Positions 1,162-16,927 of a stretch of 17,999 nucleotides of DNA are shown piece after piece. Position 1 is the stretch's first letter; every line of letters begins with the position of its first letter. Under the pieces are notes generated by a model. The model saw only the letters and a program-made list of their open reading frames with translations. It was not told the origin of the DNA and did not search any database. The position numbers and the translations under genes were made by a program. Origin of the DNA: Solirubrobacteraceae bacterium (GTDB lineage Bacteria > Actinomycetota > Thermoleophilia > Solirubrobacterales > Solirubrobacteraceae); assembly GCA_024710825.1 (NCBI GenBank), contig JANJUA010000067.1, positions 1 to 17,999 of the forward strand, in the 5' to 3' direction.

Positions 1162-1225
1162 AGCGGCAGCCGAGCGCCGCCTCACCCCCACGCGGACGGC
1201 GATTGGACAGACGTTCTAGACCGTC

Positions 1226-1276
1226 GGGTGGCTGTCGACTTCGCGTCGGTATGCGACGTCAGCTCGACAGCGACCC
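1226..1276. terminator. Long inverted repeat between the carboxylase operon and the sigma gene (terminator or operator)
   Basis: Arms at 1226-1238 (gggtggctgtcga) and 1264-1276 (tcgacagcgaccc) pair at 12 of 13 positions. A second 5-bp stem lies inside (1244-1248 with 1254-1258, loop gtatg). The structure begins about 5 nt after the stop of the carboxylase beta gene, which suggests a terminator for that operon, although there is no T-tract. It also sits upstream of the sigma gene in the same direction, so a regulator site is possible. Confidence 0.5.
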
Positions 1277-1280
1277 GCCG

Positions 1281-2846
1281 CTACATGCGGAAGACGCCGT
1301 AGCGCGGCTCCTCCAGCGGCGCGTTGGCCGCGGCGCTGAGCGCCAGCCCGAGCACGTCGCGCGTGTCGCGCGGGTCGATCACGCCGTCGTCCCACAGCCG
1401 AGCGGTCGAGTAGTACGGCCGCCCCTGCTCCTCGTACTGCTCGCGCAGCCTCGCCCCCACCTCGGCCTGCCCGACGGTCTCCATCACCGTCGCCGCCTGC
1501 TCGCCGCCCATGACGCTGATCCGCGCGTTGGGCCACATGAACAGGAACCGCGGCGAGTACGCCCGCCCGCACATCCCGTAGTTGCCCGCGCCGAACGAGC
1601 CGCCGACGATCACCGTCAGCTTCGGCACCCGCGCGCAGGACACGGCCGTGACGAGCTTGGCGCCGTCGCGCGCGATCCCGCCCGCCTCGTAGTCGCGGCC
1701 GACCATGAAGCCGCTGACGTTCTGCAGGAACAGCAGCGGGATCCGGCGCTGGTCGCACAGCTCGATGAAGTGCGCGCCCTTGAGCGCCGACTCGCGGAAC
1801 AGGATCCCGTTGTTGGCCAGGATTCCGACCGGATGGCCGTGGAGGTGGGCGAACCCGGTCACGAGCGTCGTCCCGTAGAGCTCCTTGAACTCCGCGAACC
1901 GCGAGCCGTCGACGATCCGCGCGACGATCTCACGCGCATCGTAGGGCCTGCGCAGCCCCACCGGCACCGCGCCGAGCAGGCCCTCGGGATCGACCGCGGG
2001 AGCCTCCGCCGCAGCCCGCTCCCACGGCGGCGCGACCCGCGGCGGCAGCGTCGCCACGATCCGGCGCACGATCTGGAGCGCGTGCTCGTCGTCGTCGGCG
2101 AGATGGTCGGCCACGCCGGAGCGGCGGGCGTGCAGATCGCCGCCGCCGAGCTCCTCCGCCGTCACCTCCTCGCCCGTCGCCGCCTTCACCAGCGGCGGAC
2201 CGCCGAGGAAGATCGTGCCCTGCTCGCGCACGATGATCGTCTCGTCGCTCATCGCCGGCACGTACGCGCCGCCCGCGGTGCACGACCCCATGACGGCCGC
2301 GATCTGCGCGATGCCGCGCGCGGACATCGTCGCCTGGTTGAAGAAGATCCGCCCGAAGTGCTCGCGGTCGGGGAAGACGTCGTCCTGGCGCGGCAGGAAC
2401 GCGCCGCCCGAGTCGACGAGGTAGACGCAGGGCTGATGGTTCTGCAGCGCCACCTCCTGCGCGCGCAGGTGCTTCTTGACCGTCACGGGGTAGTACGTGC
2501 CGCCCTTGACCGTGGCGTCGTTGGCGACGATCAGCACCTCGCGCCCACACACCCGCCCGATGCCGGTCACGATGCCCGCGCCCGGCGCCTCGTCGTCGTA
2601 CATCCCGTGCGCCGCCAGCGGCGAGAGCTCGAGGAACGGCGCCCCCGGGTCCAGCAGCCGGTCGACGCGCTCGCGCGGCAGCAGCTTTCCGCGCTCGACG
2701 TGCCGCGCCCGCGAGCGCTCGCCCCCGCCCAGCGCCGCCCGCGCCAGCTCCGCCCGCAGGTCGGCGATCAGCTCGCTGTGCCCGGCGACGTTCGCCGCGA
2801 ACTCCTCCGAACCGGGATCGGCCGTCGTCCTCAGCACTCTGCTCAT
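1281..2846 (-). CDS. mccB: Methylcrotonyl-CoA carboxylase beta subunit (carboxyltransferase)
   Basis: This 521-residue protein is the usual length for the MCC beta subunit, which transfers CO2 from carboxybiotin to 3-methylcrotonyl-CoA in leucine breakdown. Visible signatures are [17 protein letters not shown], the N-terminal-half oxyanion/CoA region [15 protein letters not shown], the C-terminal-half [16 protein letters not shown], the MGGEQAATV segment, and a C-terminus ending YGVFRM. The last is typical of MCC rather than acetyl- or propionyl-CoA carboxyltransferases. ATG at 2846 was chosen because it overlaps the alpha-subunit stop as ATGA and has GGAGG 7 nt upstream; a frame extending to 3311 is only antiparallel coding noise within the alpha gene. 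It is the last gene of the operon. Propionyl- or geranyl-CoA specificity is a less likely alternative. Confidence 0.93.
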
Positions 2847-4786
2847 GCCGCCGCCTCCACGTGCCCGAGCGGCTGGTCGAGCGCCACCTTGTCGCCCGGG
2901 GCGACCCCGAGCTCGGTCACCACGCCGTCCATCGGCGCCGCGATCGTCAACTCCATCTTCATCGACTCCAGCACCACGATCGGCTGCCCGGCGGTCACCG
3001 CGTCGCCCACGGACGCCGGGACGAGCAGCACCTGTCCCGGCATCGGCGCGCGCAGGGCGCCGTGCACGTGCGCCTCGTGGACCTCCTCGGTCGACGGCCG
3101 CCGGACCAGCCAGGCGTCGCCGTCGCAGCCGAGCCACAGCGACTCGCCGTCGACGGCGTAGCGCCACACCCGCCGCGGCCCGTCGCCACGGCACACGGCG
3201 AACGCGTCGTCGCCAACCCGGTCGACCGCGGCGGCCGCGCCGTCGACCTCGACGGTGCCCCGCACGACCACCTCCACCGGCTCGCCCCCGTCGACGGCAA
3301 GCGTCCACCAAGCGCGCGCCCGCTCGCCGCCGAGGCGCCGGCCGTCGGCCGCCTCGAACGGGTCGTCGCCGGCCGCCTCCGCGCGCAGCGCCATGTGCAC
3401 GAGCGCCGCGACGCGCGCCGCCTCGCCGCCGTCCACCGCCCGGTCCTCGAGCTCCAACCGCTCCACGAGCCCGGGGTCCAGCGCCCCCGCCCGCACCTCC
3501 TCGGCGCGCAGCAGCCGGCGCACGTGGCCGGCGGTGGTCCGCACGCCGAGGACCGTCGTCTCCGCCAGCGCCCGGTCGAGCCGCGCCAGCGCGCCCGCGC
3601 GGTCGTCGGCGTGGGCGATCACCTTGGCGACCATCGAGTCGTAGTCCGTCGTCACCAGCGAGCCGGGCTCGATCGCGTCGTCGACGCGGACGCCGCGCGG
3701 GCGCCGGTAGGCCAGCACCCGCCCCGACGACGGCAGGAACCCCGCCGCCGCGTCCTCGGCGTTCACGCGCGCCTCGACCGCGTGCCCGCGCAGCACGACG
3801 TCCTCCTGCGCCAGGGGCAGAGGCTCGCCCGCCGCGACCCGAAGCTGGAGCTCGACGAGGTCCAGGCCCGTCACGAGCTCCGTGACCGGGTGCTCGACCT
3901 GCAGCCGCGCGTTCATCTCGAGGAAGAAGTGCTCGCCGGGATCGTCATAGCTCGCGAGGAACTCGACCGTGCCCGCGCCGACGTAGCCCGCCGCCCGCGC
4001 GAGCGCGACCGCCTCCTCGCCCAGCCGGGCGCGCAGCTCCGCGCCGACCACGGGCGACGGCGCCTCCTCGACCACCTTCTGATGGCGGCGCTGAAGCGAG
4101 CACTCGCGCTCGCCGAGGTGCAGCACGGCGCCGTGCGCGTCGCCGATCACCTGCACCTCGAGGTGGCGCGCCCGCGCGACGAAGCGCTCGACCAGCAGGG
4201 CGTCGTCGCCGAACGCCCGCGCGGCCTCGCGCCGGGCGGCCGCCAGCGCGTCCGGCAGCGCGGCGAGCTCGGACACCACCCGCATCCCGCGCCCGCCGCC
4301 GCCGGCGGCGGCCTTTACCAGCAGCGGCAACGGCGCATCCCGCGCCCAGGCGAGGATCTCCGCGTCGGTCAGCCCCGGCCGGTTGAGCCCCGGCACGACC
4401 GGCACGCCCGCCGCCTCGGCGGCCAGCTTCGCGCGCACCTTGTCGCCCATCAGCTCGATCGTCGCCGCCGACGGCCCGACGAACACGAGCCCGGCCTCCT
4501 CGCAGGCCCGCGCGAACGCCGCGCTCTCGGAGACGAAGCCGTAGCCGGGATGGACGGCGGCCGCGCCCGATCGCAGCGCCGCCTCCACCAGCCGCGCCAC
4601 CGAGAGATACGACTCCGCCGCCGGGGCCGGGCCGAGGCGCAGCGCCTCGTCGGCCTCGCGGACGTGGGGGGCGTCGCGGTCGGCGTCCGAGTACACGGCG
4701 ACCGAGCGGATCCCCAGCGCGCGCAGCGTGCGGATGACCCGCCGCGCGATCTCGCCGCGGTTGGCGACCAGCACCGACTCCAGCAT
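2843..4786 (-). CDS. mccA: Methylcrotonyl-CoA carboxylase alpha subunit (biotin carboxylase + BCCP)
   Basis: This 647-residue protein carries a biotin carboxylase domain (residues 1 to about 450) and a C-terminal biotinyl domain. The start [20 protein letters not shown] is the standard biotin-carboxylase beginning. The ATP-grasp glycine loop reads [14 protein letters not shown], followed by [20 protein letters not shown] and the catalytic segment [14 protein letters not shown]. The biotin attachment motif ESMKME places the modified lysine near residue 610. It carboxylates its own biotin with ATP and bicarbonate and passes CO2 to the beta subunit. ATG at 4786 overlaps the dehydrogenase stop by one base (TGATG), and its own stop overlaps the mccB start (ATGA), so the three genes are one operon. 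The middle region (about 460-570) fits the BT/linker domain that joins alpha to beta in MCC/PCC enzymes. Confidence 0.93.
2854..2858 (-). promoter_or_regulatory. Ribosome binding site of mccB
   Basis: GGAGG on the minus strand lies 7 nt before the ATG at 2846, inside the last codons of mccA. It decides the mccB start and supports translational coupling. Confidence 0.7.
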
Positions 4787-5919
4787 CAGGCGCCGAGCGC
4801 GCGGGCGATCACCATCTGCTGGACCTCGTCGGTCCCCTCGCCGATGGTGAGGATCTTCGCGTCGCGGTAGAAGCGACACACCGGGTACTCCTCGATGTAG
4901 CCGTAGCCGCCGTGGATCTGCACGGCCTCCTCGCTGCACCGCACCGCCAGACGGCCGGTCTTGAGCTTGGCCTGGGCGGCGGTCAGCGTGAAGCTGCGCC
5001 CGGCGTCCTTCTCGCGCGCGGCCTTGTAGACGAGCAGGCGGGCGGCCTCGATCTCGGTCGCCATGTCGGCGAGCTTGCCCTGGATCGCCTGGAACTTCGA
5101 GATCGGCCGGCCGAACGCGCGGCGCTGCGTCGCGTAGCTCAGCGCCTCGTCGAGCGCGCCCTGCGCCAGCCCGACGCCCATGGCCGCCACGCCGATGCGC
5201 CCGATGTCGAGGATGTGGAGGAACTGCTTGAAGCCCTGGCCGCGTGGGCCGAGCAGGTTGGCCTCGGGGACGCGGCAGTCGGTGAACGTCAGCGGCCGCG
5301 TGTCGGAGGCATGCCAGCCCATCTTGCGGTACGGCTCGCCCTGCTCGTAGCCGGGCGTCCCGTTGGGCACGATCAGGTTGGAGATCTCGTCGTCTCCGGT
5401 CCTGGCGGTGATGCAGACGAGGCCCGAGATGTCGGTCCCCGCGTTGGTGATGAACTGCTTGGCGCCGTCGATCACCCACTCGCCGTCCTCGAGCCGGGCG
5501 CGGGTGCGGACGTTGCCCGCGTCGCTGCCCGCCTCCGGCTCGGTGAGGCCGAACGCGCCGAGCCGCTCGCCGCTGCACAGCCGCGGCAGCCACTCGCGCT
5601 TCTGCTCCTCGGTGCCGAACAGGTAGATCGGCTGCGTGCCGAGCGACGTGTGCGCGCAGAGCGTGATCGCCACCGAGGAGTCCACCCGCGTGAGCTCCTC
5701 GACCGCCAGCGCGTAGGCGAGCGTGTCGCCCCCGCCGCCGCCGTACTCCTCCGGGAACGGGATGCCCATCAGCCCCAGCTCGCCGAGCTGGCGCACGATC
5801 TCGTACGGGAAGCGCTTCTCCCGGTCGAGCTCCTCGGCCACCGGGGCGACCTCCCCCTCGGCGAACTCGCGCACCGTGCGCCGGATGAGCTGGTGGTCGT
5901 CGGAGAGGTCGAAGTCCAT
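4786..5919 (-). CDS. Acyl-CoA dehydrogenase of the branched-chain/leucine operon
   Basis: This 377-residue flavoprotein has full-length acyl-CoA dehydrogenase architecture. FAD/substrate-binding signatures include GLTEPEAGSDAG, a W-containing KMGWHASDTRPLTF stretch, RRAFGRPISKFQAIQ and EEAVQIHGGYGYIEEYPVCR. It would oxidise an acyl-CoA to the 2-enoyl-CoA, most simply isovaleryl-CoA to the 3-methylcrotonyl-CoA used by the downstream carboxylase. However, the catalytic Glu is in the classical short/medium-chain position (E361 in IGEGTDEVQ). The helix-G site used by isovaleryl-CoA dehydrogenases reads LDIGR, without Glu. It may therefore act on other branched or short acyl-CoAs. ATG at 5919 gives the normal MDFDLSDDHQLIR start; an upstream extension to 6000 would run through the operator and is rejected. 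It is the first gene of the operon, probably leaderless. Confidence 0.92.
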   Translation of the reverse strand: MDFDLSDDHQLIRRTVREFAEGEVAPVAEELDREKRFPYEIVRQLGELGLMGIPFPEEYGGGGGDTLAYALAVEELTRVDSSVAITLCAHTSLGTQPIYLFGTEEQKREWLPRLCSGERLGAFGLTEPEAGSDAGNVRTRARLEDGEWVIDGAKQFITNAGTDISGLVCITARTGDDEISNLIVPNGTPGYEQGEPYRKMGWHASDTRPLTFTDCRVPEANLLGPRGQGFKQFLHILDIGRIGVAAMGVGLAQGALDEALSYATQRRAFGRPISKFQAIQGKLADMATEIEAARLLVYKAAREKDAGRSFTLTAAQAKLKTGRLAVRCSEEAVQIHGGYGYIEEYPVCRFYRDAKILTIGEGTDEVQQMVIARALGA

Positions 5920-5925
5920 GACGGC

Positions 5926-5931
5926 GTTATA
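5926..5931 (-). promoter_or_regulatory. -10 box of the dehydrogenase-mccAB operon, leaderless transcript
   Basis: TATAAC on the minus strand lies 6 nt from the ATG at 5919, so transcription would start at or next to the A of ATG. No Shine-Dalgarno sequence fits in between. No good -35 is visible. Confidence 0.55.
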
Positions 5932-5966
5932 CCGAACGACCCTTCTAAGTTCTAGCGGTCGTTCGG

Positions 5967-5972
5967 TATAAC
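5967..5972 (+). promoter_or_regulatory. -10 box of the tetR gene, leaderless transcript
   Basis: TATAAC lies 8 nt before the GTG start at 5981, mirroring the -10 of the divergent operon. There is no room for a Shine-Dalgarno leader if transcription starts about 7 nt downstream. Confidence 0.5.
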
Positions 5973-5980
5973 GTGGCGGC

Positions 5981-6583
5981 GTGGCCTCCCAGCCCCCCAC
6001 CCGCCCGGCCCTCCGCGAGCGTTACGAGCGCCGCCGCCAGGAGGTGCTCGCGACCGCCGCGCGCGTCTTCGCGGAGCGCGGCTACCAGGCGACCTCGATG
6101 GCCGACCTGACCGAGGCGACCGGCCTGACCGCCGGGGGCCTCTACCACTACATCGGCAGCAAGGAGCAGCTGCTGTTCGGCATCTGCGACGACCTCATGG
6201 CGCCGCTGCTGGAGCAGGCGCGGCCGATCGCCGGCGGCGACGGCCCGCCCCAGGAGCGCCTGCGCGCGCTGCTGCGCACGTGGCTGCGCCACGTCGCGGC
6301 CCACCGCGACCATCTGCTCGTCTTCGCCCAGGAGCGCCACGTCATCGAGCGCGAGCCCCAGTGGCGCGCGGTCCGCCGCCAGCGGCGCGAGTTCGAGGCG
6401 CTGCTCGACGACGTCCTCGCCGAGGGCGAGCGCACCGGCGCCATGCGCTTCGCCGACCGCCGGCTCGCCCTGCTCGCGCTGCTGGGCATGGTCAACCACA
6501 CCGCCCAGTGGTTCCGTCCGCGCGGCCGGCTCAGCGCGGAGCAGATCGCCGACGGCTACTGCGACCTGCTGCTGAGGGGCTGA
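5981..6583 (+). CDS. TetR-family transcriptional regulator of the branched-chain acyl-CoA operon
   Basis: This 200-residue protein has a clear TetR N-terminal helix-turn-helix (about 18-64): VLATAARVFAERGYQATSM, then TGLTAGGLYHYIGSKEQLL. An all-helical ligand/dimerisation domain with a long Arg-rich helix (EREPQWRAVRRQRREFEALL) follows and resembles KstR2/FadR-type actinobacterial regulators. GTG at 5981 was chosen because it directly follows the TATAAC box and starts at the usual distance before the HTH. It is divergent from the dehydrogenase-mccAB operon across a perfect inverted repeat, so it probably represses that operon and itself. The ligand is likely an acyl-CoA of the pathway; this is inferred from context. 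Its last 53 nt overlap, tail to tail, the 3' end of the cyclase gene on the other strand. Confidence 0.92.
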   Translation: MASQPPTRPALRERYERRRQEVLATAARVFAERGYQATSMADLTEATGLTAGGLYHYIGSKEQLLFGICDDLMAPLLEQARPIAGGDGPPQERLRALLRTWLRHVAAHRDHLLVFAQERHVIEREPQWRAVRRQRREFEALLDDVLAEGERTGAMRFADRRLALLALLGMVNHTAQWFRPRGRLSAEQIADGYCDLLLRG

Positions 6584-7916
6584 GCGCGAGCAGCTCGCGG
6601 ACCTCGACCGGCGCCTCGCGGCCCTTGACCGCCAGCACCCCGAGCGGCTCGGTCAGAGCGTCCGGCAGGCGGCGCGCCGTCTCGGGCCCGATCGCCACGC
6701 CGCCCACGGGCGCGTGGCCCTCCAGACGCGCCGCGACGTTGACCGTGTCGCCGATCGCCGTGTGCGTCCGACCGCCGCTCGCCCCCAGGACGGCGATCGT
6801 CGCCGTGCCCGTGTTGACGCCGACGCGGAAGCGCGGCCAGTCCGGGTGAGCCTCGGCGACCCGCCGCGTCGCGGCCTGGATCGCGAGGGCCGCGGCCGCC
6901 GCGCGCTCGACGTGGTCGAGCTGATCGCCGCGGCGGTTGAAGGTGACCATCAGCGCGTCGCCGATGATGCGGTCGACCTCCCCACCGTGGTCGCGCACCA
7001 CCGCGGGCACCACCTCCCGGAAGTACGTGTTGAGCATCCGGGCGACCTCGCGCGGCTCGTGGCGCTCGGAGAACGCCGTAAAGCCCTGGAGGTCCGCGAA
7101 CACGACGCTGACCTCGCGCTCGCCCTCGGCGGTGGCGTCGAGGTAGAGGTCAGCGAAGCGCTCCTCGTGCCACGAGCGGTGCGCCGCCCAGGCGATGAGC
7201 ACGAACGCCGCCAGCATCAGCAGGTGCCACTCCCACCAGGTCGCGTGCCAGTTGCGGGCGACCGCGATCGCCAGGATCGCCTCCGCGAGCAGCGCCCACG
7301 CCGCCACCATCGTCACCAGCAGCGGCGCGGGCCGGCGCCGCCACAGGGCGATGTAGCGCACCGCGGCGAAGGCGTACAGCGCGATCCCGACGGCGGCGAG
7401 CGCGAGCAGTGGGCCCGACGTGCGCTCAGGCACGGGGCCGCCGTCGAACGGGCCGAGCGAGGCGAGCGACAGCAGGCCCCACGCCGCCATGACGGCGAGC
7501 AGCAGCGCCCGCAGGCGGCGCGCCGTACGCAGCGAGACGCCCTCCAGGCTGGACGCGGCGGCGAACGCCCCCGCCACGACGAGGCCGACCGGCGTGGCCA
7601 GGGCGAAGCCCGGGTTGCTCGCCGCCAGCAGGACGCCGGGCGTCGCCAGAGCGTGCAGGGCGAGGAAGCCGGCGGCGGCGAGGAACGCGAGGCTGACGAG
7701 CAGCACGCGCGCGTCGCCGCGCCGGGCCGCCTCGACGGACGTCGCGTAGGCCAGCACGGCGTTCAGCCCCGCCGCGCCGAGCACGAGCCAGAAGTGCGCC
7801 GGGTGGTGCTCCCAATGCACGTCGAGCGCGGGCTCGGCGATCAGGAGCGCGAGACCCGCCGCCGGCAGCGCCAGCGCGACGGCGAGCGTGGCGACGGAGG
7901 CGCGCCGCGCCGTCAC
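6531..7916 (-). CDS. Membrane-anchored class III adenylate/guanylate cyclase
   Basis: This 461-residue protein has about eight hydrophobic helices (roughly 8-28, 42-61, 70-92, 104-124, 136-156, 167-191, 198-220, 229-247) followed by a cytoplasmic class III cyclase domain (about 265-445). Metal-binding aspartates are D275 (FADLQGFT) and D320 (IIGDALMVTF). The transition-state pair N393/R397 is present in TVNVAAR. The purine-specifying positions are unusual: R316 replaces the canonical Lys and T384 replaces the Asp. Thr at this site is characteristic of class IIIb (bicarbonate-responsive type) cyclases. It would make cAMP, though specificity is not certain. GTG at 7916 overlaps the upstream flavoprotein stop (GTGA), so the two are co-translated. 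Its 3' end overlaps tetR by 53 nt on the opposite strand. A longer upstream frame is only noise inside the neighbour. Confidence 0.9.
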   Translation of the reverse strand: MTARRASVATLAVALALPAAGLALLIAEPALDVHWEHHPAHFWLVLGAAGLNAVLAYATSVEAARRGDARVLLVSLAFLAAAGFLALHALATPGVLLAASNPGFALATPVGLVVAGAFAAASSLEGVSLRTARRLRALLLAVMAAWGLLSLASLGPFDGGPVPERTSGPLLALAAVGIALYAFAAVRYIALWRRRPAPLLVTMVAAWALLAEAILAIAVARNWHATWWEWHLLMLAAFVLIAWAAHRSWHEERFADLYLDATAEGEREVSVVFADLQGFTAFSERHEPREVARMLNTYFREVVPAVVRDHGGEVDRIIGDALMVTFNRRGDQLDHVERAAAAALAIQAATRRVAEAHPDWPRFRVGVNTGTATIAVLGASGGRTHTAIGDTVNVAARLEGHAPVGGVAIGPETARRLPDALTEPLGVLAVKGREAPVEVRELLALSPSAAGRSSRRRSAPR

Positions 7917-9628
7917 GGCGTCCCCGTGGCGATCGAGGGATCGCCCACCCGCGCCAGGCACTCGTGCACCTGGCCTATGACCACCGAGCCGTCGCCGACC
8001 GCGGAGGCGGCGCGCTTGACCGAGTGGCTGCGCACGTCGCCCACCGCGAAGACCAGCGGGACCGTCGTCTCCAGCGGCGTCGGCGGCCGCGCCTCGTCCC
8101 AGCCCGCGTCCTCCGCCGCGCGACCGGTGAGCACGTAGCCCCAGCGGTCGCGGGCCACCGCGGGCGGGAGCCACTCGGCGCGCGGGCGCCCGCCGATGAG
8201 GACGAACACCCCGGCCGCCTCCTCGTCCGTCGTCTCACCGGTCGCCGTGTCGCGCACCCGCAGGCGCTGGAGGCGCCCGTTGCCCGAGCCGCCGGCGACC
8301 TCCGCGCCGAGCCGCACGTCGATCGTCCCCGCCGCCTCGATCGCGTCGAGCAGATAGCGCGACATGCTCTCCGCCAGCGATCGGCCGCGGACGAGCATCG
8401 TGACCCGCGACGCGGTCCGCGCGAGGTGCAGCGCGGCCTGGCCGGCGGAGTTGCCTCCGCCGACCACGAAGACCGGCCGCCCGGCGACCGAGGCCGCCTC
8501 CGAGACGGAGGCGCCGTAGTAGACGCCGGCCCCGACGAGCCGGTCCAGCTCCGGCACCCCGAGCAGGCGGTAGCGGATGCCGGTGGCGAGCACGACCGCG
8601 CGCGCGGTCACCTCCAGGCCTCCGTCGAGCTCGAGCACGTGGCGGCCGTGCTCGCCGGCCCCGACGCGCAGCGCGACCGCCTCGCGCATCAGCACGAAGC
8701 GGGCGCCGAACACCCACGCCTGCTGGTAGGCGCGCTGGGCCAGCTCCGCGCCGCTGACGCCGCGCGGGAAGCCCAGGTAGTTGCGGATCAGCGAGCTGGA
8801 CCCCGCCTGACCGCCGATCGACTCGCACTCGACGACCAGCGTGCGCAGGCCCTCCGACGCCCCGTACACCGCGGCGGACAGGCCGCCCGGTCCCGCGCCC
8901 AGCACGACGACGTCGTAGTGGCGCTCCCCGCCGAGGTCCGTGCTGACGCCGTACGCGCCGGCAAGCTCGGCGTTGGACGGATCGACCATCGCCACGCCGT
9001 CGTAGCGGAGCACGACCGGGCGGCGCTCGTCGGCCAGCCCGGCGTCGCGCAGCAGGGCGGCGCCGCGCTCGGAGTCGCGGTCGTGCGCCGCGTGCGGGAC
9101 GCCGTTGCGCGTCAGCAGGTCGCGCAGCTCGTGGGCGCGCGGCGACCAGCGCTCGGCGACGACCGCGAGCTCGTGCAGGCTCCCGGTCGCCCGGGACCAC
9201 TCGAGCAGCAGCTCCGTGATCGTGCGGTGGAAGTGCTCGTCGCGCTCGCGCCAGGGCTTGAGCACGTAGTAGTCGATGTGGCCGAGCGCCATGGCGCGGT
9301 GGATCGCCTCGGCGGTGGGACGGTCGCCCCACGAGCCCCAGTCCACGAGCAGGCCGCGCTTGGCCTGCGGACAGAGCGCCCGCACGCGGGCGAGGACGTC
9401 GGCGCCGGTGGCGGAGCCGAGCCACTGGTCGGCGAGCACGAGCGCCAGCTCGAGGCCCTCGGCGCGGCACTCCTCGACACGACGCAGCGCGGCGGCGGCC
9501 GAGCCGGCCGTCTCGACGTCGTAGTCGGAGCCGTAGCGGCCGCGCAGCTCGCCGACGGTGCGAGCGAGCGCCTCGGGATCGTCGTCGACGACGAGTAGGA
9601 TGGGAGCGAACGGTTCGACGGAGCTCAT
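7913..9628 (-). CDS. Fusion of response-regulator receiver, glutaredoxin-like and thioredoxin-reductase-like flavoprotein domains
   Basis: This 571-residue protein has three parts. Residues 8-145 are a receiver domain: acidic pocket D15-D17, phosphoacceptor D67 (VLADQW), conserved K124 (YVLKPW); the usual Thr/Ser at strand 4 appears to be D96. Residues about 152-228 look like a glutaredoxin/GST-type fold (ERWSPRAHELRDLLTRNGVP, then RRPVVLRYDG) lacking the CxxC. Residues 238-565 are a pyridine-nucleotide disulfide reductase with FAD motif GAGPGG (244-249), NAD(P)H motif GGGNSAG (390-396), LATG (347-350) and a C-terminal FAVGD (527-531). The thioredoxin-reductase CxxC site reads GASV (372-375), so classical disulfide reduction is unlikely. 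I infer a redox or NAD(P)H sensor or oxidoreductase under two-component control. ATG at 9628 has GGGGAGG 9 nt upstream. It is co-transcribed with the cyclase; no partner histidine kinase is visible. Confidence 0.9.
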   Translation of the reverse strand: MSSVEPFAPILLVVDDDPEALARTVGELRGRYGSDYDVETAGSAAAALRRVEECRAEGLELALVLADQWLGSATGADVLARVRALCPQAKRGLLVDWGSWGDRPTAEAIHRAMALGHIDYYVLKPWRERDEHFHRTITELLLEWSRATGSLHELAVVAERWSPRAHELRDLLTRNGVPHAAHDRDSERGAALLRDAGLADERRPVVLRYDGVAMVDPSNAELAGAYGVSTDLGGERHYDVVVLGAGPGGLSAAVYGASEGLRTLVVECESIGGQAGSSSLIRNYLGFPRGVSGAELAQRAYQQAWVFGARFVLMREAVALRVGAGEHGRHVLELDGGLEVTARAVVLATGIRYRLLGVPELDRLVGAGVYYGASVSEAASVAGRPVFVVGGGNSAGQAALHLARTASRVTMLVRGRSLAESMSRYLLDAIEAAGTIDVRLGAEVAGGSGNGRLQRLRVRDTATGETTDEEAAGVFVLIGGRPRAEWLPPAVARDRWGYVLTGRAAEDAGWDEARPPTPLETTVPLVFAVGDVRSHSVKRAASAVGDGSVVIGQVHECLARVGDPSIATGTP

Positions 9629-9637
9629 GCGGCACAG

Positions 9638-9644
9638 CCTCCCC
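9638..9644 (-). promoter_or_regulatory. Ribosome binding site of the receiver-flavoprotein gene
   Basis: GGGGAGG on the minus strand is spaced 9 nt from the ATG at 9628, in the 24-bp gap after the BTAD regulator. It is one of the few strong Shine-Dalgarno sites in the window and supports translation independent of the broken upstream gene. Confidence 0.7.
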
Positions 9645-9652
9645 GCGGCCGG

Positions 9653-11800
9653 TTACCGCGGCGCTACCGCTCCCTGACCGGCTGGCGCGTCGACCGCCGC
9701 GGCGGCGGCCCGGAGGTCGGCGGTCTCGTGGCCCTCGGTGAACGTCCGCAGCAGCGCGCCCAGCTCGGCTCGCGCGCTCGCGGAGGCGGTCGGACGCCCC
9801 GCCAGCAGGCCGACGAGGTCCGTCAGCGCGCGCAGCTCCAGCGAGCGCGCCCCCTGCTCGCGGGCGACGCCCACGGCGCGGCGCAGCGCGGCCTCCGCGA
9901 GCTCCGGCTCCGCGGTGGCGGCGGCCGAGAGCCGCAGCAGCTCGGGCTCCAGGAAGCGCGCCCGCTCGCGGCAGCCGAGCTCGACGCCCTCGCCCGCCGC
10001 GGCGCGGCAGGCCGCCGGGTCTCCGTCGAGCAGGTGCGCCTCGGCGAGCAGCGCGAGGAAGTGCGGGTCGTCCATCCGCGCGCCCGTCGCCCTCGCCTCG
10101 GCGAGACCGGCGGCCGTCTCCTCCACACCGGTGCTCGGGTCGCCCAGCAGGGCGAGCGCCCAGCCGCGCAGGACCCGCCCCGTCGCGACGCGGTAGGCGT
10201 AGCCGAGCTCCCGACCCGCGTCGACGGTCGCATGCGCCCACCGGAGCGTCGCCTCCGGCTCCCGGCGGCAGGAGTGCACGACCGCGAGCTGCGCCCGGGC
10301 GGTGGCCCGGCTGTAGGCCCGGCGGGGGTCGGCGGCGAGGTCGAGCGCGATCCGCGCCCGCTCCAGCGCCCGATCGGGGCGACCGAGGAACCACAGCGCC
10401 AGCCCGGCCCAGTCCTGGCACGACACGCCGGCGTTGTCGCCCATCGTGGCGGGGAGCGTCGAGTAGCCGCCCGCGTCCTCCCCGGCGGCGGCGTACAGCG
10501 CCGCACCCGACTCGGCGTGCTCGAGCGCCCGCAGGAACGCGCCCTGGTGGAACAGGCTGCAGGCCAGCAGCTCCTCGGACTCGAGCCGCGTGGCGCGCGC
10601 GTCGACCGGGGCCAGACGCAGGCACTCCTCCGTGAGCCGGTGCGCGCGCGCCACCTCGCCGCGCACCTCGCTGAGGGTCGCCAGGGCGAGCAGCACCGCC
10701 ACCAGCGGCTCGTTGTCGTCGAGCGTCGCGGCGGCCTCGCGCGCCGTTGCGAGCTCATCCTCGGCGGCCGGCGAGGACCAGCCCTCCACGGCGACGAGCG
10801 CCTGGCCGAGATGCGCGCGCAGCTCCACCTCGGCGCGGACGCGCTCGACGGAGGCGGGTAGCTCAGCCGCGGCGTCGAGCGCGGCGCGGAGGTGCCGGAT
10901 GCCCTCGTCGGGGGCGCTGCGGGCGAACGCGCGCTCGGCCGCGGCGCGCAGGAACAGCATCGCCTGCTCGGGGTCGCGGCCGGCGACGAAGTGCCGGGCC
11001 AGCTCGACGGCGTGCTCGGTGGCCGTCGCGCCGTACTCGGCGGCCAGGTGGCGCCCGACGAGGGCATGCAGCTCGGCGCGGCGCTCGGGCGCGAGCCCGT
11101 CGCGGAGGACCTCGCGCTCGAGGTCGTGGGCGAACGCGAAGCCGGCCGGCCCCGCCTCCAGCAGCGGGGTCCGCCGCGCGAGCGCCGCGCACCGATCGGC
11201 GACCTCGGCCTCCGGGCGCTCGAGCACGGCGGCGAGGGTCCTCGGCGCGAAGCGCGGGCCCGCTACCGCCGCGACGGTCAGCAGCTCGGCGTCGTCGTCG
11301 CCCAGCGCCGCCAGCCGGTGCTCGAGATGCGCGCGCAGCGTCCGCGGCACGCCTGCGTCGAGGTCGCCCGCCACGCGGACGCTCGCGGCGAGCGCCTGAA
11401 GGGCGCCGGTGCGCAGCCAGTGGTCGAGCAGCAGACGCGCGAACAGCGGGTTGCCGCCCGTGCGGCGGGCGAGCGCGGCCGCGACCTCGGGGGGAGCGCC
11501 GCCGGGGAACCGGCGGGCCGCCAGCTCCGCGAGCGCCGCCGCCGACAGGCGGCCCAGGACGACGTCGTCCGCGGCGCCGCGCAGCGCCAGCTCGCCCGCG
11601 AGCCGGCGCACCGGCCCGGCGTCGGTCCGCGTGGAGACGTAGGTCCCGACGATCAGGAGCCGCGCCGGATGGCGGCGTCGGGCGAGCGCGGCGACGGCGT
11701 CCAGGCTCGGGCCGTCGGCCCAGTGCAGGTCCTCGAGCACGAGCACGACGGGACTCCGCTCGGCGAGCGCGTCGAGCGCCTCGAGCAGCTCGCGCAGCAT
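9653..11800 (-). CDS. C-terminal part of the interrupted BTAD regulator: ATPase remainder and TPR-like repeats
   Basis: Read from the first ATG after the internal stop, this part has 715 residues. It opens with Walker B and sensor-like segments (VVLVLEDLHWADGPSLDAVAALARR, cut short here; RLLIVGTYVSTRTD). Next comes the GRLSAAALAELAARRFPGG and RRTGGNPLFARLLLDHWL pattern of AAA_16/STAND ATPases. From about residue 250 to the end it is Ala/Leu/Arg/Glu-rich helical hairpins resembling degenerate TPRs (for example AERAFARSAPDEGIRHLRAALDAA). It has no C-terminal LuxR helix-turn-helix, so by itself it has no DNA-binding domain. The stop is TAA, and the gene ends 24 bp before the receiver-flavoprotein start. 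Whether it is translated alone is doubtful. Confidence 0.6.
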   Translation of the reverse strand: MLRELLEALDALAERSPVVLVLEDLHWADGPSLDAVAALARRRHPARLLIVGTYVSTRTDAGPVRRLAGELALRGAADDVVLGRLSAAALAELAARRFPGGAPPEVAAALARRTGGNPLFARLLLDHWLRTGALQALAASVRVAGDLDAGVPRTLRAHLEHRLAALGDDDAELLTVAAVAGPRFAPRTLAAVLERPEAEVADRCAALARRTPLLEAGPAGFAFAHDLEREVLRDGLAPERRAELHALVGRHLAAEYGATATEHAVELARHFVAGRDPEQAMLFLRAAAERAFARSAPDEGIRHLRAALDAAAELPASVERVRAEVELRAHLGQALVAVEGWSSPAAEDELATAREAAATLDDNEPLVAVLLALATLSEVRGEVARAHRLTEECLRLAPVDARATRLESEELLACSLFHQGAFLRALEHAESGAALYAAAGEDAGGYSTLPATMGDNAGVSCQDWAGLALWFLGRPDRALERARIALDLAADPRRAYSRATARAQLAVVHSCRREPEATLRWAHATVDAGRELGYAYRVATGRVLRGWALALLGDPSTGVEETAAGLAEARATGARMDDPHFLALLAEAHLLDGDPAACRAAAGEGVELGCRERARFLEPELLRLSAAATAEPELAEAALRRAVGVAREQGARSLELRALTDLVGLLAGRPTASASARAELGALLRTFTEGHETADLRAAAAAVDAPAGQGAVAPR

Positions 11801-11839
11801 CCGGTCGGCCGTGGCGCCGCGCGCGCGTCGCTCGACGGC

Positions 11840-12958
11840 TTAGGCGATCCCGTCGGACATGAGCCACGGGAGCTGCACGAGCCAGGTCGGCCCGCGCGTG
11901 GCGAGGATCTCGACGGCGACGTCCGCCGCCGGGTCGTGCGCGAGCGAACCCAGCGCGTCGAGGATCGCCAGGTACGGCTCTCCCGGGCCGGTGTGCTCGT
12001 GGCACTGGCCGGCGGCGACGAGCAGGCGCTCGCCCTTGCCCGCCTCGGCCACGAAAGCCTCGACCAGCGCGGTCTTGCCCACCCCCTCCTCGCCGCCGAG
12101 GAGCACCGTGCGCCGCTGGCCGCCGCAGGCGCCGGCGAGCGCCTCGCGCAGCAGCGACAGCTCCGCCGCGCGCCCGGCGAGGACGGTGCCCGGCGTACGC
12201 TCGCCGGGCCGCGCGGCGAGCGCGGGGTCCTGCTCGAGGATGCGCCGCTCCAGCGCGCGCGTCTCCTGCACGGGCTGGAGGCCCAGCTCCAGCAGACGCT
12301 CGGCGAGCGCCCGGTAGGCGGCCAGCGCGTCGGCCTGGCGGCCGGCGCGGTAGAGCGCGAGCATGTGCGCGCGGACGACCTGCTCGCGCAGCGGCTCGGC
12401 CTCGACGAGGCGCTCGAGCGCGGGCAGCGCCTCCTCGAGCCGGCCCAGGTCGACGAGGGCGCCGGCGCGCGCCTCCTGCGCCGCGCGACGGACCTGCTCG
12501 AGGCGGCGGGCCTCGGCGTGGGCAGCCGGGTCGTCGGGGAGGTCGGCGAAGGGCGGCCCGCGCCAGAGCGCGAGCGCATCCTCCAGGCGCTCGAGCGCGG
12601 CCGCCGGCGGCAGGGCGTCCGCGTCGCGGACGACGCGCTCGAAGCGGCATGAATCGACGTCGCCGGGATCGACGGCGAGCCGATAGCCCGCCTGGTCGCG
12701 CACGAGGATCGAGCCGTCGCCGTCGTGGCGATCGGGCTCCAGGAAGCGGCGCAGGCGCGAGATCCGCACGCGCAGCGACCGCGCCGCCGCGTCGTGGTCG
12801 GCCTCGTCCCAGATCGCGTCCAGCAGCGCGTCGACCGTCACGGGGCGTCCCGGATCGACGAGGAGGCGCGCCAGCACCGCCCGCTCCTTCGCTCCTGCCG
12901 GCGACCGAGCCTCCCCGTCGTGCACGACCTCGATCGCGCCCAACACGTGGAGCTCCAC
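11840..12958 (-). CDS. N-terminal part of the interrupted BTAD regulator: winged helix, BTAD and Walker A
   Basis: This part has 372 residues from GTG at 12958. Residues 1-98 form an OmpR/AfsR-like winged helix (VELHVLGAIEV; KERAVLARLLVDPGRPVTVD; SLRVRISRLRRFLEPD; GYRLAVDP). Residues about 100-246 are the bacterial transcriptional activation domain (FERVVRDADAL... LLELGLQPVQETRALERRIL). Residues from 255 begin the ATPase, with Walker A GEEGVGKT at 289-296. It ends at TAA just after WLVQLPWLMSDGIA. Family members activate operons, often secondary metabolism or stress genes. Since DNA binding and BTAD are intact, a truncated protein could still bind DNA as small SARP activators do. A frame extension upstream to 13045 is Arg-rich noise; the GTG is supported by a TAGGCT box 7 nt upstream. 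Confidence 0.7.
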   Translation of the reverse strand: MELHVLGAIEVVHDGEARSPAGAKERAVLARLLVDPGRPVTVDALLDAIWDEADHDAAARSLRVRISRLRRFLEPDRHDGDGSILVRDQAGYRLAVDPGDVDSCRFERVVRDADALPPAAALERLEDALALWRGPPFADLPDDPAAHAEARRLEQVRRAAQEARAGALVDLGRLEEALPALERLVEAEPLREQVVRAHMLALYRAGRQADALAAYRALAERLLELGLQPVQETRALERRILEQDPALAARPGERTPGTVLAGRAAELSLLREALAGACGGQRRTVLLGGEEGVGKTALVEAFVAEAGKGERLLVAAGQCHEHTGPGEPYLAILDALGSLAHDPAADVAVEILATRGPTWLVQLPWLMSDGIA

Positions 12959-12965
12959 GTGCGCG

Positions 12966-12995
12966 AGCCTATCCGGGCGGCGCCGGCGGCGGCAA
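12966..12995 (-). promoter_or_regulatory. Promoter of the BTAD-regulator operon, probably leaderless
   Basis: On the minus strand TTGCCG (12995-12990) is followed after 18 nt by TAGGCT (12971-12966), which ends 7 nt before the GTG start at 12958. It is the best -35/-10 pair I see in the 102-bp gap after the thiolase gene. It is a motif match by eye only. Confidence 0.4.
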
Positions 12996-13029
12996 GGCGG
13001 CAGTGCGACGGATCGGGCCCGCCCGGCGA

Positions 13030-13042
13030 CGCCGATCCGGCG
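13030..13042. terminator. Small hairpin downstream of the thiolase gene
   Basis: CGCCG-atc-CGGCG forms a 5-bp stem about 20 nt past the thiolase stop at 13061. No T-tract follows. It is a weak terminator candidate in a background where short GC stems are common. Confidence 0.25.
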
Positions 13043-13060
13043 CACCCCGCGCTCGCCGTC

Positions 13061-14296
13061 CTACCGTTCGACGATCGCCACCAGCCCCTGGCCGCCCGCG
13101 GCGCAGATCGAGATCAGGCCGCGGCCCGAGCCGCGCTCGGACAGCAGCTTCGCCAGCTGGGCCACGATCCGGCCGCCGGTGGCGGCGAACGGGTGCCCGA
13201 ACGCCAGCGACGAGCCGGCCACGTTGAGCTTGGACCGGTCGATCGTGCCCAGCCCCGCCGCCTCCCACGCCTTCAGCGTGGCGAGCACCTGGGAGGCGAA
13301 CGCCTCGTGGATATCGTAGAAGTCGAAGTCCTGGAGCGTGAGCTCGTTGCGCTCGAGCAGGCGTGGGACGGCGCGGACCGGCGCCATGAGCAGCCCCTCG
13401 TCGCCGTGGACGTGGTCGACGGCGGCGACGACCGCGTCCGTGAGGTACGCGAGCACGGGCAGCGACCGCTCCTTCGCCCACGCGTCGGAGGCCAGCAGGA
13501 CTACGCTGGCGCCATCGGAGAGGGGCGTCGAGTTGCCGGCGGTCATCGTGGCGTCGTCGCCGTCGCCGAACACCGGCTTGAGGCGGGCGAGCTTCTCGAC
13601 GGTCGAGTCGGGGCGCAGGTTCTGGTCGCGCGACAGGCCGAGGTACGGCGTGACGAGGTCGTCCATGAAGCCGCGCTCATAGGCCGCGGCGGCATGCTGG
13701 TGGCTCGCCGCCGCCAGCTCGTCCTGCTCCTCGCGGCCGATCGACCACGCCTTGGCGGTCAGCGCGGCGTGGTCGCCCATCGACAGGCCGGTGCGGGGCT
13801 CGGCGTTGCGCGGGATGTCGGGCACGACGTGGTGGGGACGCAGGTCGCCGAGCAGCCGCAGGCGCCCGAGCGTGGAGGGCGTGCGGCGGGCCCGCAGCAG
13901 CGTACGGCGCAGGTCCTCGTTGAGCCCGAGCGGCGCGTCGCTCGCCGTGTCGGCGCCGCCGGCGATGCCGCAGTCGATCTGCCCCGCGGCGATCTTGGCG
14001 GCGACGATCACCGCGGCCTGGAGCCCGGTGTCGCACGCCTGCTGGACGTCGTAGGCGGGCGTGTCGCTCGACAGCGCGCTGCCGAGCACGCACTCGCGCG
14101 TCAGGTTGTAGTCGCGCGCGTGCTTGAGGACGGCGCCGGCGACGACCTCGCCGACGCGCTCGCCCTGGAGGCCAAAGCGGGCGGCGAGGCCGTCGAGGGC
14201 CGTGGTGAGCATGTCCTGGTTGGAGGCCTCGGCGTACGGGCCGTCGGACCGCGCGAAGGGGATCCGGTTGCCGCCGATGATCGCTGTTGGTGTCAT
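13061..14296 (-). CDS. fadA2: Acetyl-CoA C-acyltransferase (thiolase), FadI/FadA2-like
   Basis: This 411-residue thiolase would split 3-ketoacyl-CoA into acetyl-CoA and a shortened acyl-CoA, or run in reverse. The active residues are all present: nucleophile C88 in QQACDTGLQA, H330 in YDIHEAFASQ, H368 in GHPFAATGGR and C398 in CAAGGQG. The HEAF form (instead of NEAF) is that of FadI/trifunctional-type thiolases. ATG at 14296 gives the usual MTPTAIIGGNRIPFARSDG start; the upstream extension to 14380 would overlap the divergent gene and is rejected. It is divergent, over a 28-bp gap, from a FabG4/HtdX-like pair, the same layout as mycobacterial fadA2. I use the symbol by this context and family, not by a database hit. 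Confidence 0.9.
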   Translation of the reverse strand: MTPTAIIGGNRIPFARSDGPYAEASNQDMLTTALDGLAARFGLQGERVGEVVAGAVLKHARDYNLTRECVLGSALSSDTPAYDVQQACDTGLQAAVIVAAKIAAGQIDCGIAGGADTASDAPLGLNEDLRRTLLRARRTPSTLGRLRLLGDLRPHHVVPDIPRNAEPRTGLSMGDHAALTAKAWSIGREEQDELAAASHQHAAAAYERGFMDDLVTPYLGLSRDQNLRPDSTVEKLARLKPVFGDGDDATMTAGNSTPLSDGASVVLLASDAWAKERSLPVLAYLTDAVVAAVDHVHGDEGLLMAPVRAVPRLLERNELTLQDFDFYDIHEAFASQVLATLKAWEAAGLGTIDRSKLNVAGSSLAFGHPFAATGGRIVAQLAKLLSERGSGRGLISICAAGGQGLVAIVER

Positions 14297-14324
14297 GGTT
14301 CGATGTGACATCATACGGTGCCTC
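14297..14324. promoter_or_regulatory. 28-bp divergent promoter/operator between thiolase and ketoreductase
   Basis: The gap holds a short palindrome gatgt-g-acatc (14302-14312). It also has a TATGAT box on the minus strand (14315-14310), 13 nt from the thiolase ATG, and TACGGT on the plus strand (14314-14319), 5 nt from the ketoreductase ATG. Neither gene has a Shine-Dalgarno site here, so leaderless or near-leaderless transcripts are likely. A factor on the palindrome would affect both promoters. Confidence 0.45.
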
Positions 14325-15635
14325 ATGGCAGACACCCTCCAACAGCTCCTCGACTCCCCACCCGCCCGCGCCGTCATCACCCGGCTGGGGGTCCCCGAGG
14401 CGACGCCCCTGCGCCGCTACGAGCCCGGCCAGCCGCTCCTCGACGGGCCGGCCCTGGTCGGCGGCGGCGGTCGCCTGCGGGCCGCCGCCGAGCGCATCCT
14501 CGCCGACGCCGGCGCGGAGATCCGCGACGCCGAGGCCGGCGGCCAGGGCGCGCTCGTCTTCGACGCGAGCGACCTGGCGTCGCCCGCCGACCTCCGTCGC
14601 CTGTACGAGTTCTTCCACCCCGTCCTGCGGCGGCTGCGGCCGAGCGGGCGGGTGGTCGTCCTGGGAGCGCCGCCGGAGGGCGGGGCGGCGGTCGCGCAGC
14701 GCGCGCTGGAGGGCTTCGTGCGCTCGCTCGCCAAGGAGCTGCGGCGAGGCGCGACCGCGCAGCTCGTGCGGGTGGCGGAGGGCGCGGAGGACGACCTCGA
14801 CGCGACGCTGCGCTTCGTGCTCTCGGCCCGCTCCGCGTACGTCGACGCGCAGACCGTCTGCGTCGGACCCGGCGAGAGCACGGCGCCCGACGACTGGGAG
14901 CGGCCGCTGGCGGGGCGGGTGGCCGTGGTCACCGGGGCGTCGCGCGGCATCGGCGCGGCCATCGCCGAGACGCTCGCCCGCGACGGCGCCGAGGTCGTCT
15001 GCCTCGACGTGCCCGTCCAGGGCGCCGCGCTGGCCCGCGTCGCCAACGACGTCGGCGGCTCCGCGCTCCAGCTCGACGTCACCGCCGTCGACGCGGCCGA
15101 CTCGCTGCGCTCCCACCTGCTCGAGCGCCACGGCGGCGTGGACGTGGTGGTCCACAACGCGGGCATCACGCGCGACCGCACGCTGGCCCGGATGAGCGAG
15201 GCGGAGTGGGATGTGCTCATGGCGGTCAACCTCGCCGCGCCCCAGCGGCTGACCGAGGCGCTGCTCGAGGGCGACGCGCTGCGCGCCGGCGGGCGGGTGG
15301 TCTGCGTCTCGTCGATGAGCGGCATCGCGGGCAACCGCGGGCAGGTCAACTACGCGGCGAGCAAGGCGGGGATCATCGGCCTCGTCCAGGCGCTCGCGCC
15401 GGTCCTCGCGCCGACGCGGACGATCAACGCGGTCGCGCCCGGCTTCATCGAGACCGAGATGACCGCGGCGATGCCGTTCTTCACGCGCGAGGCGGGGCGG
15501 CGGATGAACAGCCTCGCCCAGGGCGGCCGGCCGGTCGACGTCGCGGAGACGATCGCCTGGATGGCGAGCCCGGCGTCCGGCGGGGTCAACGGCAACGTGG
15601 TCCGCGTGTGCGGCCAGAACCTGCTGGGGGCGTGA
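14325..15635 (+). CDS. fabG4: Long-form 3-oxoacyl-(ACP/CoA) reductase, FabG4-like SDR
   Basis: At 436 residues this is a 'high-molecular-weight' FabG. Residues 1 to about 190 form an N-terminal Rossmann-like, apparently non-catalytic domain. Residues from 196 form the short-chain dehydrogenase domain: cofactor loop TGASRGIG (203-210), NAG (278-280), catalytic S330, Y343 and K347 (VSSMSG; NYAASKAG) and N302. Mycobacterial FabG4 reduces 3-ketoacyl-CoA with NADH; this family function is carried over by inference. ATG at 14325 was chosen as the first start clear of the thiolase promoter and gives MADTLQQLLDSP. Its stop lies 2 nt before the dehydratase start, so both are one transcript: 3-ketoacyl to 3-hydroxyacyl to enoyl. 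With the divergent thiolase it could form a chain-elongation or reverse beta-oxidation module. Confidence 0.9.
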   Translation: MADTLQQLLDSPPARAVITRLGVPEATPLRRYEPGQPLLDGPALVGGGGRLRAAAERILADAGAEIRDAEAGGQGALVFDASDLASPADLRRLYEFFHPVLRRLRPSGRVVVLGAPPEGGAAVAQRALEGFVRSLAKELRRGATAQLVRVAEGAEDDLDATLRFVLSARSAYVDAQTVCVGPGESTAPDDWERPLAGRVAVVTGASRGIGAAIAETLARDGAEVVCLDVPVQGAALARVANDVGGSALQLDVTAVDAADSLRSHLLERHGGVDVVVHNAGITRDRTLARMSEAEWDVLMAVNLAAPQRLTEALLEGDALRAGGRVVCVSSMSGIAGNRGQVNYAASKAGIIGLVQALAPVLAPTRTINAVAPGFIETEMTAAMPFFTREAGRRMNSLAQGGRPVDVAETIAWMASPASGGVNGNVVRVCGQNLLGA

Positions 15636-15637
15636 CG

Positions 15638-16456
15638 ATGCTGGCGCTCTACGCCCGCGCGGTCGCCAGCGGCCTGCCGCTCGTCGGTTCGCGCGGCGGC
15701 GACACGCTGCCCTCGCTGCGCCTCGCGCGCGAGGGCCTGGAGGCCGACCGCGAGCGCCTGGCGGCCTACGACCGCGTCTGCGGGTTCCGGCTCCGTGACG
15801 AGCTGCCGTCGACGTACGTCCACGTGCTCGCCTTCCCATCGGCGCTGCGGCTGCTGACCGACCGGACGTTCCCGCTTCCGGCGCTCGGGCTCGTGCACGT
15901 GCGCAACGTCATCGTCCAGCGGCGCGCCCTGCGGCTCGGGGAGGCCTTCGACCTGGTCGTGCGCGCGGAGCGGCTGGCGCCGCACGAGCGGGGGCGCACG
16001 GTGGACGTCGTCGCCGAGGCGCGGGTGGAGGGCGAGCTCGTGTGGGAGGACGTCAGCACGTATCTGCACCGCTCGGGCGGGAGCGGCGGGGGCGGGCGGA
16101 CCGCGCGGGCGCTCGCGGAGCTGCCGCCGGCCGCGGCCGTGTGGGAGGTTCCCGGCGACGTGGGCCGCCGCTACGCCGCCGTGTCGGGCGACGCGAACCC
16201 GATCCACATGCACCGCCTTGCCGCGAAGCTGTTCGGCCTGCGCCGGGCGATCGCGCACGGCATGTGGCTGAAGGCGCGCTGCCTGGCGGCGCTGGAGGAC
16301 ACGCTGCCCGCGGCCTACACGGTGGACGTGGCGTTCAAGCTCCCTGTCGAGCTCCCGAGCAGCGTCACGTTCTCGGCGTCGCCGGACGGGGCCTTCGCCG
16401 TCCACGCGGCGCGCGACGGCAAGCCCCATCTGACGGGAGCGATCGCGGCGGGCTGA
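15638..16456 (+). CDS. htdX: MaoC-family (R)-3-hydroxyacyl-CoA dehydratase, HtdX-like
   Basis: This 272-residue double-hotdog protein has its hydratase-2 motif in the C-terminal half, YAAVSGDANPIHMHRLAAK, with catalytic D185 and H190. The N-terminal hotdog lacks these residues, and a Gly/Ser-rich linker (about 146-153) joins the two. It interconverts (R)-3-hydroxyacyl and trans-2-enoyl thioesters, completing the reductase step encoded just upstream. ATG at 15638 lies 7 nt after a GGGGG ribosome-site-like run; a GTG at 15632 overlapping the fabG4 stop as GTGA is the alternative and adds two residues. The length matches the approximately 280-residue mycobacterial HtdX, also paired with FabG4. 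Confidence 0.9.
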   Translation: MLALYARAVASGLPLVGSRGGDTLPSLRLAREGLEADRERLAAYDRVCGFRLRDELPSTYVHVLAFPSALRLLTDRTFPLPALGLVHVRNVIVQRRALRLGEAFDLVVRAERLAPHERGRTVDVVAEARVEGELVWEDVSTYLHRSGGSGGGGRTARALAELPPAAAVWEVPGDVGRRYAAVSGDANPIHMHRLAAKLFGLRRAIAHGMWLKARCLAALEDTLPAAYTVDVAFKLPVELPSSVTFSASPDGAFAVHAARDGKPHLTGAIAAG

Positions 16457-16465
16457 GCGGCGGGA

Positions 16466-16499: not shown

Positions 16500-16501
16500 G
16501 C

Positions 16502-16894: not shown

Positions 16895-16900
16895 GGACCG

Positions 16901-16906: not shown

Positions 16907-16927
16907 TGGCTACGGCAAGATTGATGC

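Follow-up and report, generated by a model that had tools for sequence, protein, structure and literature searches.

A cysteine-less thioredoxin reductase-like flavoprotein encoded in overlap with a membrane class III cyclase: a possible redox-responsive regulator

Contig JANJUA010000067.1 of a Solirubrobacteraceae bacterium (assembly GCA_024710825.1) was analysed at positions 1 to 17,999; this whole stretch of 17,999 nucleotides is called the window below. It carries the gene of a flavoprotein, P0001, whose end overlaps the start of a gene for a membrane class III cyclase. The locus raises the question of what a protein built like a thioredoxin reductase (TrxR), and lacking its cysteines, does beside an enzyme of cyclic-nucleotide synthesis. 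An earlier note on this DNA had proposed that the flavoprotein senses phosphorylation and the state of redox or of reduced nicotinamide adenine dinucleotide (phosphate) (NAD(P)H), and sets the output of the cyclase, perhaps together with the membrane domain. Our analysis showed that the gene pair recurs, and the conclusion that the pairing exceeds chance is well supported. Tentatively, with a probability of about 43%, we read P0001 as a subunit that regulates the cyclase in response to redox or NAD(P)H state, with control running from the flavoprotein to the enzyme.

The gene pair and its two proteins

P0001 (571 aa; 7913..9628, minus strand, as are all features of the pair) was delimited by translation of its open reading frame (ORF) and by domain matches, which bore out the receiver, glutaredoxin-like and TrxR-like architecture described in the earlier note. 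The TrxR-like domain for flavin adenine dinucleotide (FAD) and NAD(P)H (residues 237-559; 7952..8920) matched Pyr_redox_2 with 108 bits against a cut-off of 26.1. Its best PDB matches were thioredoxin reductases, and ferredoxin-NADP reductases of the same fold were also among the PDB matches. P0001 thus has the two-domain fold of TrxR by both Pyr_redox_2 and the TrxR structures, and the TrxB equivalog model TIGR01292 gave 186.9 bits, which did not reach its cut-off of 343.45. At the TrxR CxxC site the protein reads GASV (residues 372-375; 8504..8515), aligned with CATC of L004, the canonical TrxR of the same genome. The glutaredoxin-like domain (residues 150-232; 8933..9181) was detectable only with a 17-sequence profile, whose top PDB match was a mycobacterial glutaredoxin (2lqo, E 2.4e-4). 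Pfam Glutaredoxin matched 4 of the 17 profile members (best E 8.6e-4) and gave no match to the window's own domain alone. The active-site position of this domain is occupied by WSPRAH, with neither CxxC nor CxxS. The receiver-like domain (residues 12-128; 9245..9595) was placed by alignment columns and by a Response_reg match of 22.2 bits, under the gathering cut-off of 30.2, which some relatives exceed among the Pfam domains listed. D15-D17 (DDD), D67 and K124 are present in it, and Val95 stands at the switch Thr position.

The database search scored at least 7,992 relatives of P0001, and the annotated ones are named FAD-dependent oxidoreductase or thioredoxin reductase. Conservation was counted in 273 family rows, made up of 116 receiver-type tree rows, nine tree rows with a cyclic nucleotide-binding (CNB) domain and the best 148 database hits, the window protein being counted twice. 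Cys at the former TrxR CxxC was found in none of the 273 rows, and the glutaredoxin-region CxxC in none of the 148 closest database hits. The glycines G244, G246 and G249 (GxGxxG) and G390 of the FAD and nucleotide sites were retained in every row. Therefore a dithiol thioredoxin-reductase role is unlikely, in agreement with what the earlier note had expected from GASV, and with both cysteine pairs lost P0001 is unlikely to reduce thioredoxin.

Among the 17 tree rows paired with a membrane cyclase, the acidic pair of the receiver was kept in one (the window), D67 in 16, the Lys (K124) in two and the switch Thr in none. The closest 148 database hits kept the acidic pair in 131, D67 in 120 and the Lys in 140, with no Thr or Ser at the switch position, and rows adjoining genes like those for CNB-histidine kinases (CNB-HK) retained D, T and K in 16 of 16. 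The proposal of the earlier note is partly supported, its phosphorylation arm being the weakened part. The window keeps DD, D and K, and its receiver might still be phosphorylated, though without the usual switch residue, for which it has Val. On the alignments, the decay of the receiver in paired relatives weakens a phosphoryl input and leaves a flavin/NAD(P)H input untouched.

The gene of the cyclase (6531..7916) starts at GTG 7916, and its start and the flavoprotein stop share GTGA, a 4-nt overlap (7913..7916) that had been read in the same way before. The start of the 547-aa form in the ORF list lies too far upstream, and the 461-aa form from GTG 7916 matches the homologs. Guanylate_cyc matched the protein with 85.3 bits against a cut-off of 21.9, and the catalytic domain was located at 6615..7127. 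Alignment of 22 cyclase homologs revealed that D275, D320, N393 and R397 are invariant. We take D275 and D320 to be the metal sites, N393 and R397 to be the transition-state residues, and R316 and T386 to occupy the substrate Lys and substrate Asp positions, so that the metal Asp and transition-state Asn/Arg are all in place. Class IIIb enzymes have Thr at the substrate Asp position. T386 aligns with the Thr of the class IIIb enzyme CyaB and is found in 19 of 19 paired cyclases, plus one gap; unpaired cyclases differ here. The substrate-specifying Lys is missing, and Arg stands in its place in the window (R316) as in all 20 paired cyclases. Among unpaired membrane cyclases (n = 19), position 316 is Gln in eight, Arg in eight, Lys in two and Asp in one.

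The membrane domain of the cyclase (residues 8-245; 7182..7895) was defined by averaged hydropathy and conservation; the hydropathy has eight maxima, from which eight membrane helices are predicted. H88 and H231 are retained in 39 of 39 cyclases, paired or unpaired, H41 in 36 with three gaps, and W227, W228 and W230 are conserved as well. Three His/Trp motifs, WEHHPAHFW (35-43), LHALATPGVLL (87-97) and NWHATWWEWH (222-231), are common to paired and unpaired enzymes. From sequence, these motifs are a possible candidate sensor site, and an N-terminus on the inside would put the conserved His close to the outer face. A heme-like pair formed by H88 and H231 was considered and set aside, as no ligand could be named; the conservation is the same in paired and unpaired cyclases, and the literature searched on this point yielded nothing of use.

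Recurrence of the pair and its sister systems

Two sets of loci were used to determine how often the two genes stand together. Set A contained 73 loci, namely the window and 72 of the 73 loci that P0001 retrieved from named genomes (L079, a canonical TrxR, was set aside); it was selected by exact P0001 peptides. The second set, a draw from the phylum plus relatives, contained 54 loci including one duplicate (L080 = L016). Neighbouring genes were predicted by a gene caller of our own making, and cyclases among them were recognised with a profile. The caller missed the flavoprotein of genome G256 (L129), for which tblastn places a cyclase upstream; this locus is therefore outside the 54. In set A, a class III cyclase was the immediate neighbour at 29 of 73 loci, whereas the other neighbour positions had one in 4 of 784 cases (Fisher p 2e-21). 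It lay downstream at 22 of 68 loci, always on the same strand, and upstream at 7 of 70, six times on the same strand. The exact 4-nt overlap was found in 15 of the 22 downstream cases, the window included. The same gene pair, for which the earlier note had suggested a search, thus recurs in some soil bacteria, mostly as overlapping genes. It was seen, among others, in Jiangella, Agromyces, Cryobacterium, Glaciibacter, Mumia and metagenome-assembled genomes of Solirubrobacterales.

A flavoprotein tree of 125 rows was built by a quick method with SH-aLRT values and no bootstrap. Of its 30 rows with a cyclase neighbour, 29 fall in one clade of 58 rows (SH-aLRT 93), in which 29 have a cyclase, 26 do not and three lie at contig ends. 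The link is therefore a property of this clade and not of the family; the thirtieth row, L192, sits in a clade paired with CNB-HK-like kinase genes. At 1e-140, P0001 is matched in only 5 of 146 genomes of the bacterial family, its own included, which makes its occurrence among close relatives of the host patchy. No fewer than five architectures occur among the partner cyclases. Beside the eight-helix membrane type of the window there are cyclases of ~290 aa whose genes lie upstream and overlap that of the flavoprotein (L020, L021, L028 and others), proteins that join a cyclase to NB-ARC (L017, L022), one cyclase whose N-terminal part is of a different kind (L062) and a short cyclase whose start is rich in Cys (L042). 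Some of the names used for them (cupin-like, Cys-rich start, the membrane type of L062) were read by eye, Pfam confirming the cyclase domain only. The element common to all these partners is the cyclase domain. Catalytic ability seems unequal among the partners, as the ~290-aa cyclase of L020 was seen by eye to be without several standard residues. Paired membrane cyclases cluster in their own tree (2 label changes versus 13.3 in shuffles), and 42% of bootstrap trees give them a single origin. Pairwise distances of flavoprotein and cyclase correlate with r 0.97 (17 pairs), an effect that shared species ancestry also gives.

Relatives of P0001 occur in two further arrangements. A paralog in the same genome, L002 on contig C429, is 45% identical to P0001, TrxR-like and without CxxC, and has a CNB domain (45.3 bits) at the place of the receiver. 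This genome holds three CNB-domain hits, L002 among them, and seven cyclase domains; a second CNB-domain ORF lies ~3 kb from L002 on the same contig. In the other arrangement, 16 of the 125 tree rows are paired, by BLAST, with a CNB-HK-like kinase gene. Pfam confirmed CNB plus HATPase in six partners (L084, L189, L192 and three plasmid loci); for L236, among the 16, the partner is a receiver-kinase and not a CNB-HK. The plasmid loci, from Deinococcus, Gloeothece and Tsukamurella, have the flavoprotein followed by a gene named 'ATP-binding protein', whose product has CNB and HATPase by Pfam. Cyclases, receiver-TrxR and CNB-HK also come together on one strand, as in L189 (7336-13686: cyclase, MFS transporter, receiver-TrxR, CNB-HK) and L192 (7001-15785: cyclase, cyclase-AAA-TPR, receiver-TrxR, CNB-HK, zf-UBP). 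In genomes G156 and G261 a receiver-TrxR gene stands 2-4 kb downstream of a membrane cyclase on the same strand and is followed by a CNB-HK gene; G261 has a second cyclase before the receiver-TrxR gene and a zf-UBP gene after it. A small zf-UBP gene was repeatedly seen beside flavoproteins (L288 on a Tsukamurella plasmid, L289 on a Rhodococcus plasmid, and L192); in L289 it accompanies a CNB-TrxR gene beside trxA and clpB. A full-length CNB-HK or CNB-TrxR-like fusion was found in 14 of 26 pair-bearing genomes (25 and our own) and none was seen in 12, with 30 of 43 matches examined. A universal CNB partner of the pair was thus rejected, these proteins being seen, among the matches examined, in only some of the pair-bearing genomes.

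How the flavoprotein may act

The paired flavoproteins have no CNB domain and mostly a decayed receiver, and it is therefore not evident how the messenger could act on them. Since they also keep their cofactor sites and are made together with a cyclase, action of the flavoprotein on the cyclase is the simpler reading within the paired clade. In such a mechanism P0001 would bind FAD and a nicotinamide nucleotide and, co-made with the cyclase, would act as its cytosolic regulatory partner, presumably in physical contact with it. The state of its flavin or of NAD(P)H would set the output of the membrane enzyme, while the receiver-like domain would perhaps be a docking surface rather than a phospho-switch. 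The eight-helix domain may take a second, external input, and the cyclase would make a cyclic nucleotide such as cAMP or cGMP.

Several observations weigh against this reading. Because set A was selected by exact peptides of P0001, it is skewed to close relatives. A cyclase neighbour was found at only 3 of the 54 loci of the second set (p 0.22) and was absent from 95 of the 127 loci of both sets together. The earlier note had named homologs usually found without a cyclase neighbour as an argument against its proposal; this is so across the family but not in the nearest clade, where 29 of 58 rows have a cyclase. Seen from the other partner, the membrane cyclase was matched (1e-50) in 22 of 396 phylum genomes, and the flavoprotein was within the 1.5-kb flanks in two of the 22 (our own and G253). 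A search for joined pairs gave no clean flavoprotein-cyclase fusion among the 120 matches listed. The sole candidate there, P0131 (763 aa), has neither receiver nor glutaredoxin part, and ahead of its cyclase unrelated sequence takes the place of the flavoprotein's end; it looks like a frameshifted adjacent pair and was not counted as a fusion. The sister systems, finally, place the flavoprotein downstream of a CNB domain, so that the signal would pass in the opposite direction, from the messenger, or from whatever else that domain binds, to the flavoprotein.

This last point leads to a rather unlikely alternative, in which the cyclase stands upstream and its messenger controls family flavoproteins, either through CNB-HK phosphorylating receiver-TrxR or through CNB-TrxR fusions, the paired copy belonging to the output layer. 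The CNB domain in the receiver's place in L002, the intact D, T and K in all 16 kinase-paired rows and the cyclases, receiver-TrxR and CNB-HK on one strand in L189 and L192 are what such a circuit would look like. However, the receiver is degenerate in most of the cyclase-paired relatives, 12 of the 26 pair-bearing genomes have neither CNB-HK nor CNB-TrxR among the matches examined, and G000 has no CNB-HK match. Equally modest odds are given to the view that the two genes share only an operon, the flavoprotein being an independent oxidoreductase with an unnamed acceptor, regulated along with the cyclase in response to a common stress but not in contact with it. The many family loci without a cyclase neighbour agree with it, and so does the Rhodococcus plasmid CNB-TrxR gene adjoining trxA and clpB. 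CxxC-less TrxR-like flavoproteins can be enzymes, and ferredoxin-NADP reductases are among the PDB matches of P0001. A shared promoter alone, however, hardly explains why cyclases of several architectures stand before or after the flavoprotein gene and in many cases overlap it. A Pycsar-type anti-phage module, with the cyclase as PycC and the flavoprotein as an NAD(P)H-wasting effector, is very improbable. The window cyclase is matched by twelve PycC models of PADLOC (best 8.3e-22), and PycTIR hits the L192 kinase in its CNB part, but these matches fall in generic cyclase and CNB domains; no PADLOC model was matched by P0001, P0003, P0009 or the protein of L002, and P0001 is without the CNB domain of such an effector.

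We retain regulation of the cyclase by P0001 as the preferred reading. A fuller form of it, possible though doubtful, is a flavin-gated cyclase, in which a dead thioredoxin reductase with a pseudo-receiver would serve as regulatory subunit and the FAD/NAD(P)H state, together with the His/Trp-lined eight-helix sensor, would jointly set the signal. As the sisters would use the same body as a signal receiver, the fold would stand at both ends of one circuit. If the flavin or NAD(P)H state does gate the cyclase, this would link cell redox directly to cyclic-nucleotide signalling and provide a function for part of a large CxxC-less family annotated as thioredoxin reductase. The two overlapping genes offer a compact test system, for which the CNB-fused, kinase-paired and cyclase-paired versions in the family are natural controls.

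Neighbouring genes and known systems

A regulator of the SARP-AAA-TPR type (9653..12958, minus) was found by domain matches in two ORFs (12958-11840 and 11800-9653). The AAA_16 match stops in the former and resumes in the latter, so the gene looks frameshifted or mis-assembled. It ends 24 nt before the flavoprotein gene and may share its transcript. On the other side, a convergent TetR-family gene (5981-6583, plus) overlaps the 3' end of the cyclase by 53 bp (6531-6583). Beside it, carboxyltransferase, biotin carboxylase and acyl-CoA dehydrogenase genes (1281-5919, minus) look like an acyl-CoA carboxylase catabolic cluster.

Receiver-TrxR fusions are already known, and no paper describing the flavoprotein-cyclase pairing was found among those listed in searches of open-licence literature. 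The Mycobacterium-like combination of receiver and TrxR described in PMC5847659 has the same domain order as P0001. The P0001 clade differs from it in Val/Ile for the switch Thr and in its class III cyclase partner, no cyclase being mentioned in the passages of that paper on the fusion. The topic of PMC9584953 is thioredoxin docking of response regulators. The RefSeq class 'cyclic nucleotide-binding domain-containing thioredoxin-disulfide reductase', of which L002 is the copy in our genome, has the glutaredoxin-like and CxxC-less TrxR-like body of P0001 but a CNB domain for the receiver, and no cyclase neighbour was seen in the short locus of L002. The pair of CNB-HK and receiver-TrxR-like protein contains a homologous flavoprotein (~41-47% identity among the matches listed), with a 4-nt overlap to the partner in several loci. 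In that pair the partner is a kinase and the receiver canonical, whereas the window has a cyclase and a non-canonical receiver. AhpF resembles P0001 in having a thioredoxin-fold module before the TrxR-like domain (TIGR03140, 132.6 bits against a cut-off of 502.9). P0001 differs from it in lacking the cysteine pair in either domain, in its extra receiver and in its cyclase partner. The best single-sequence PDB match of the window cyclase was CyaB (3r5g, 5.6e-21), with which it shares the Thr at the substrate Asp position, the metal Asp, the Asn and the Arg. The window cyclase is distinguished from CyaB by Arg for the substrate Lys, by an eight-helix membrane domain to which no solved structure was matched, and by its flavoprotein partner.

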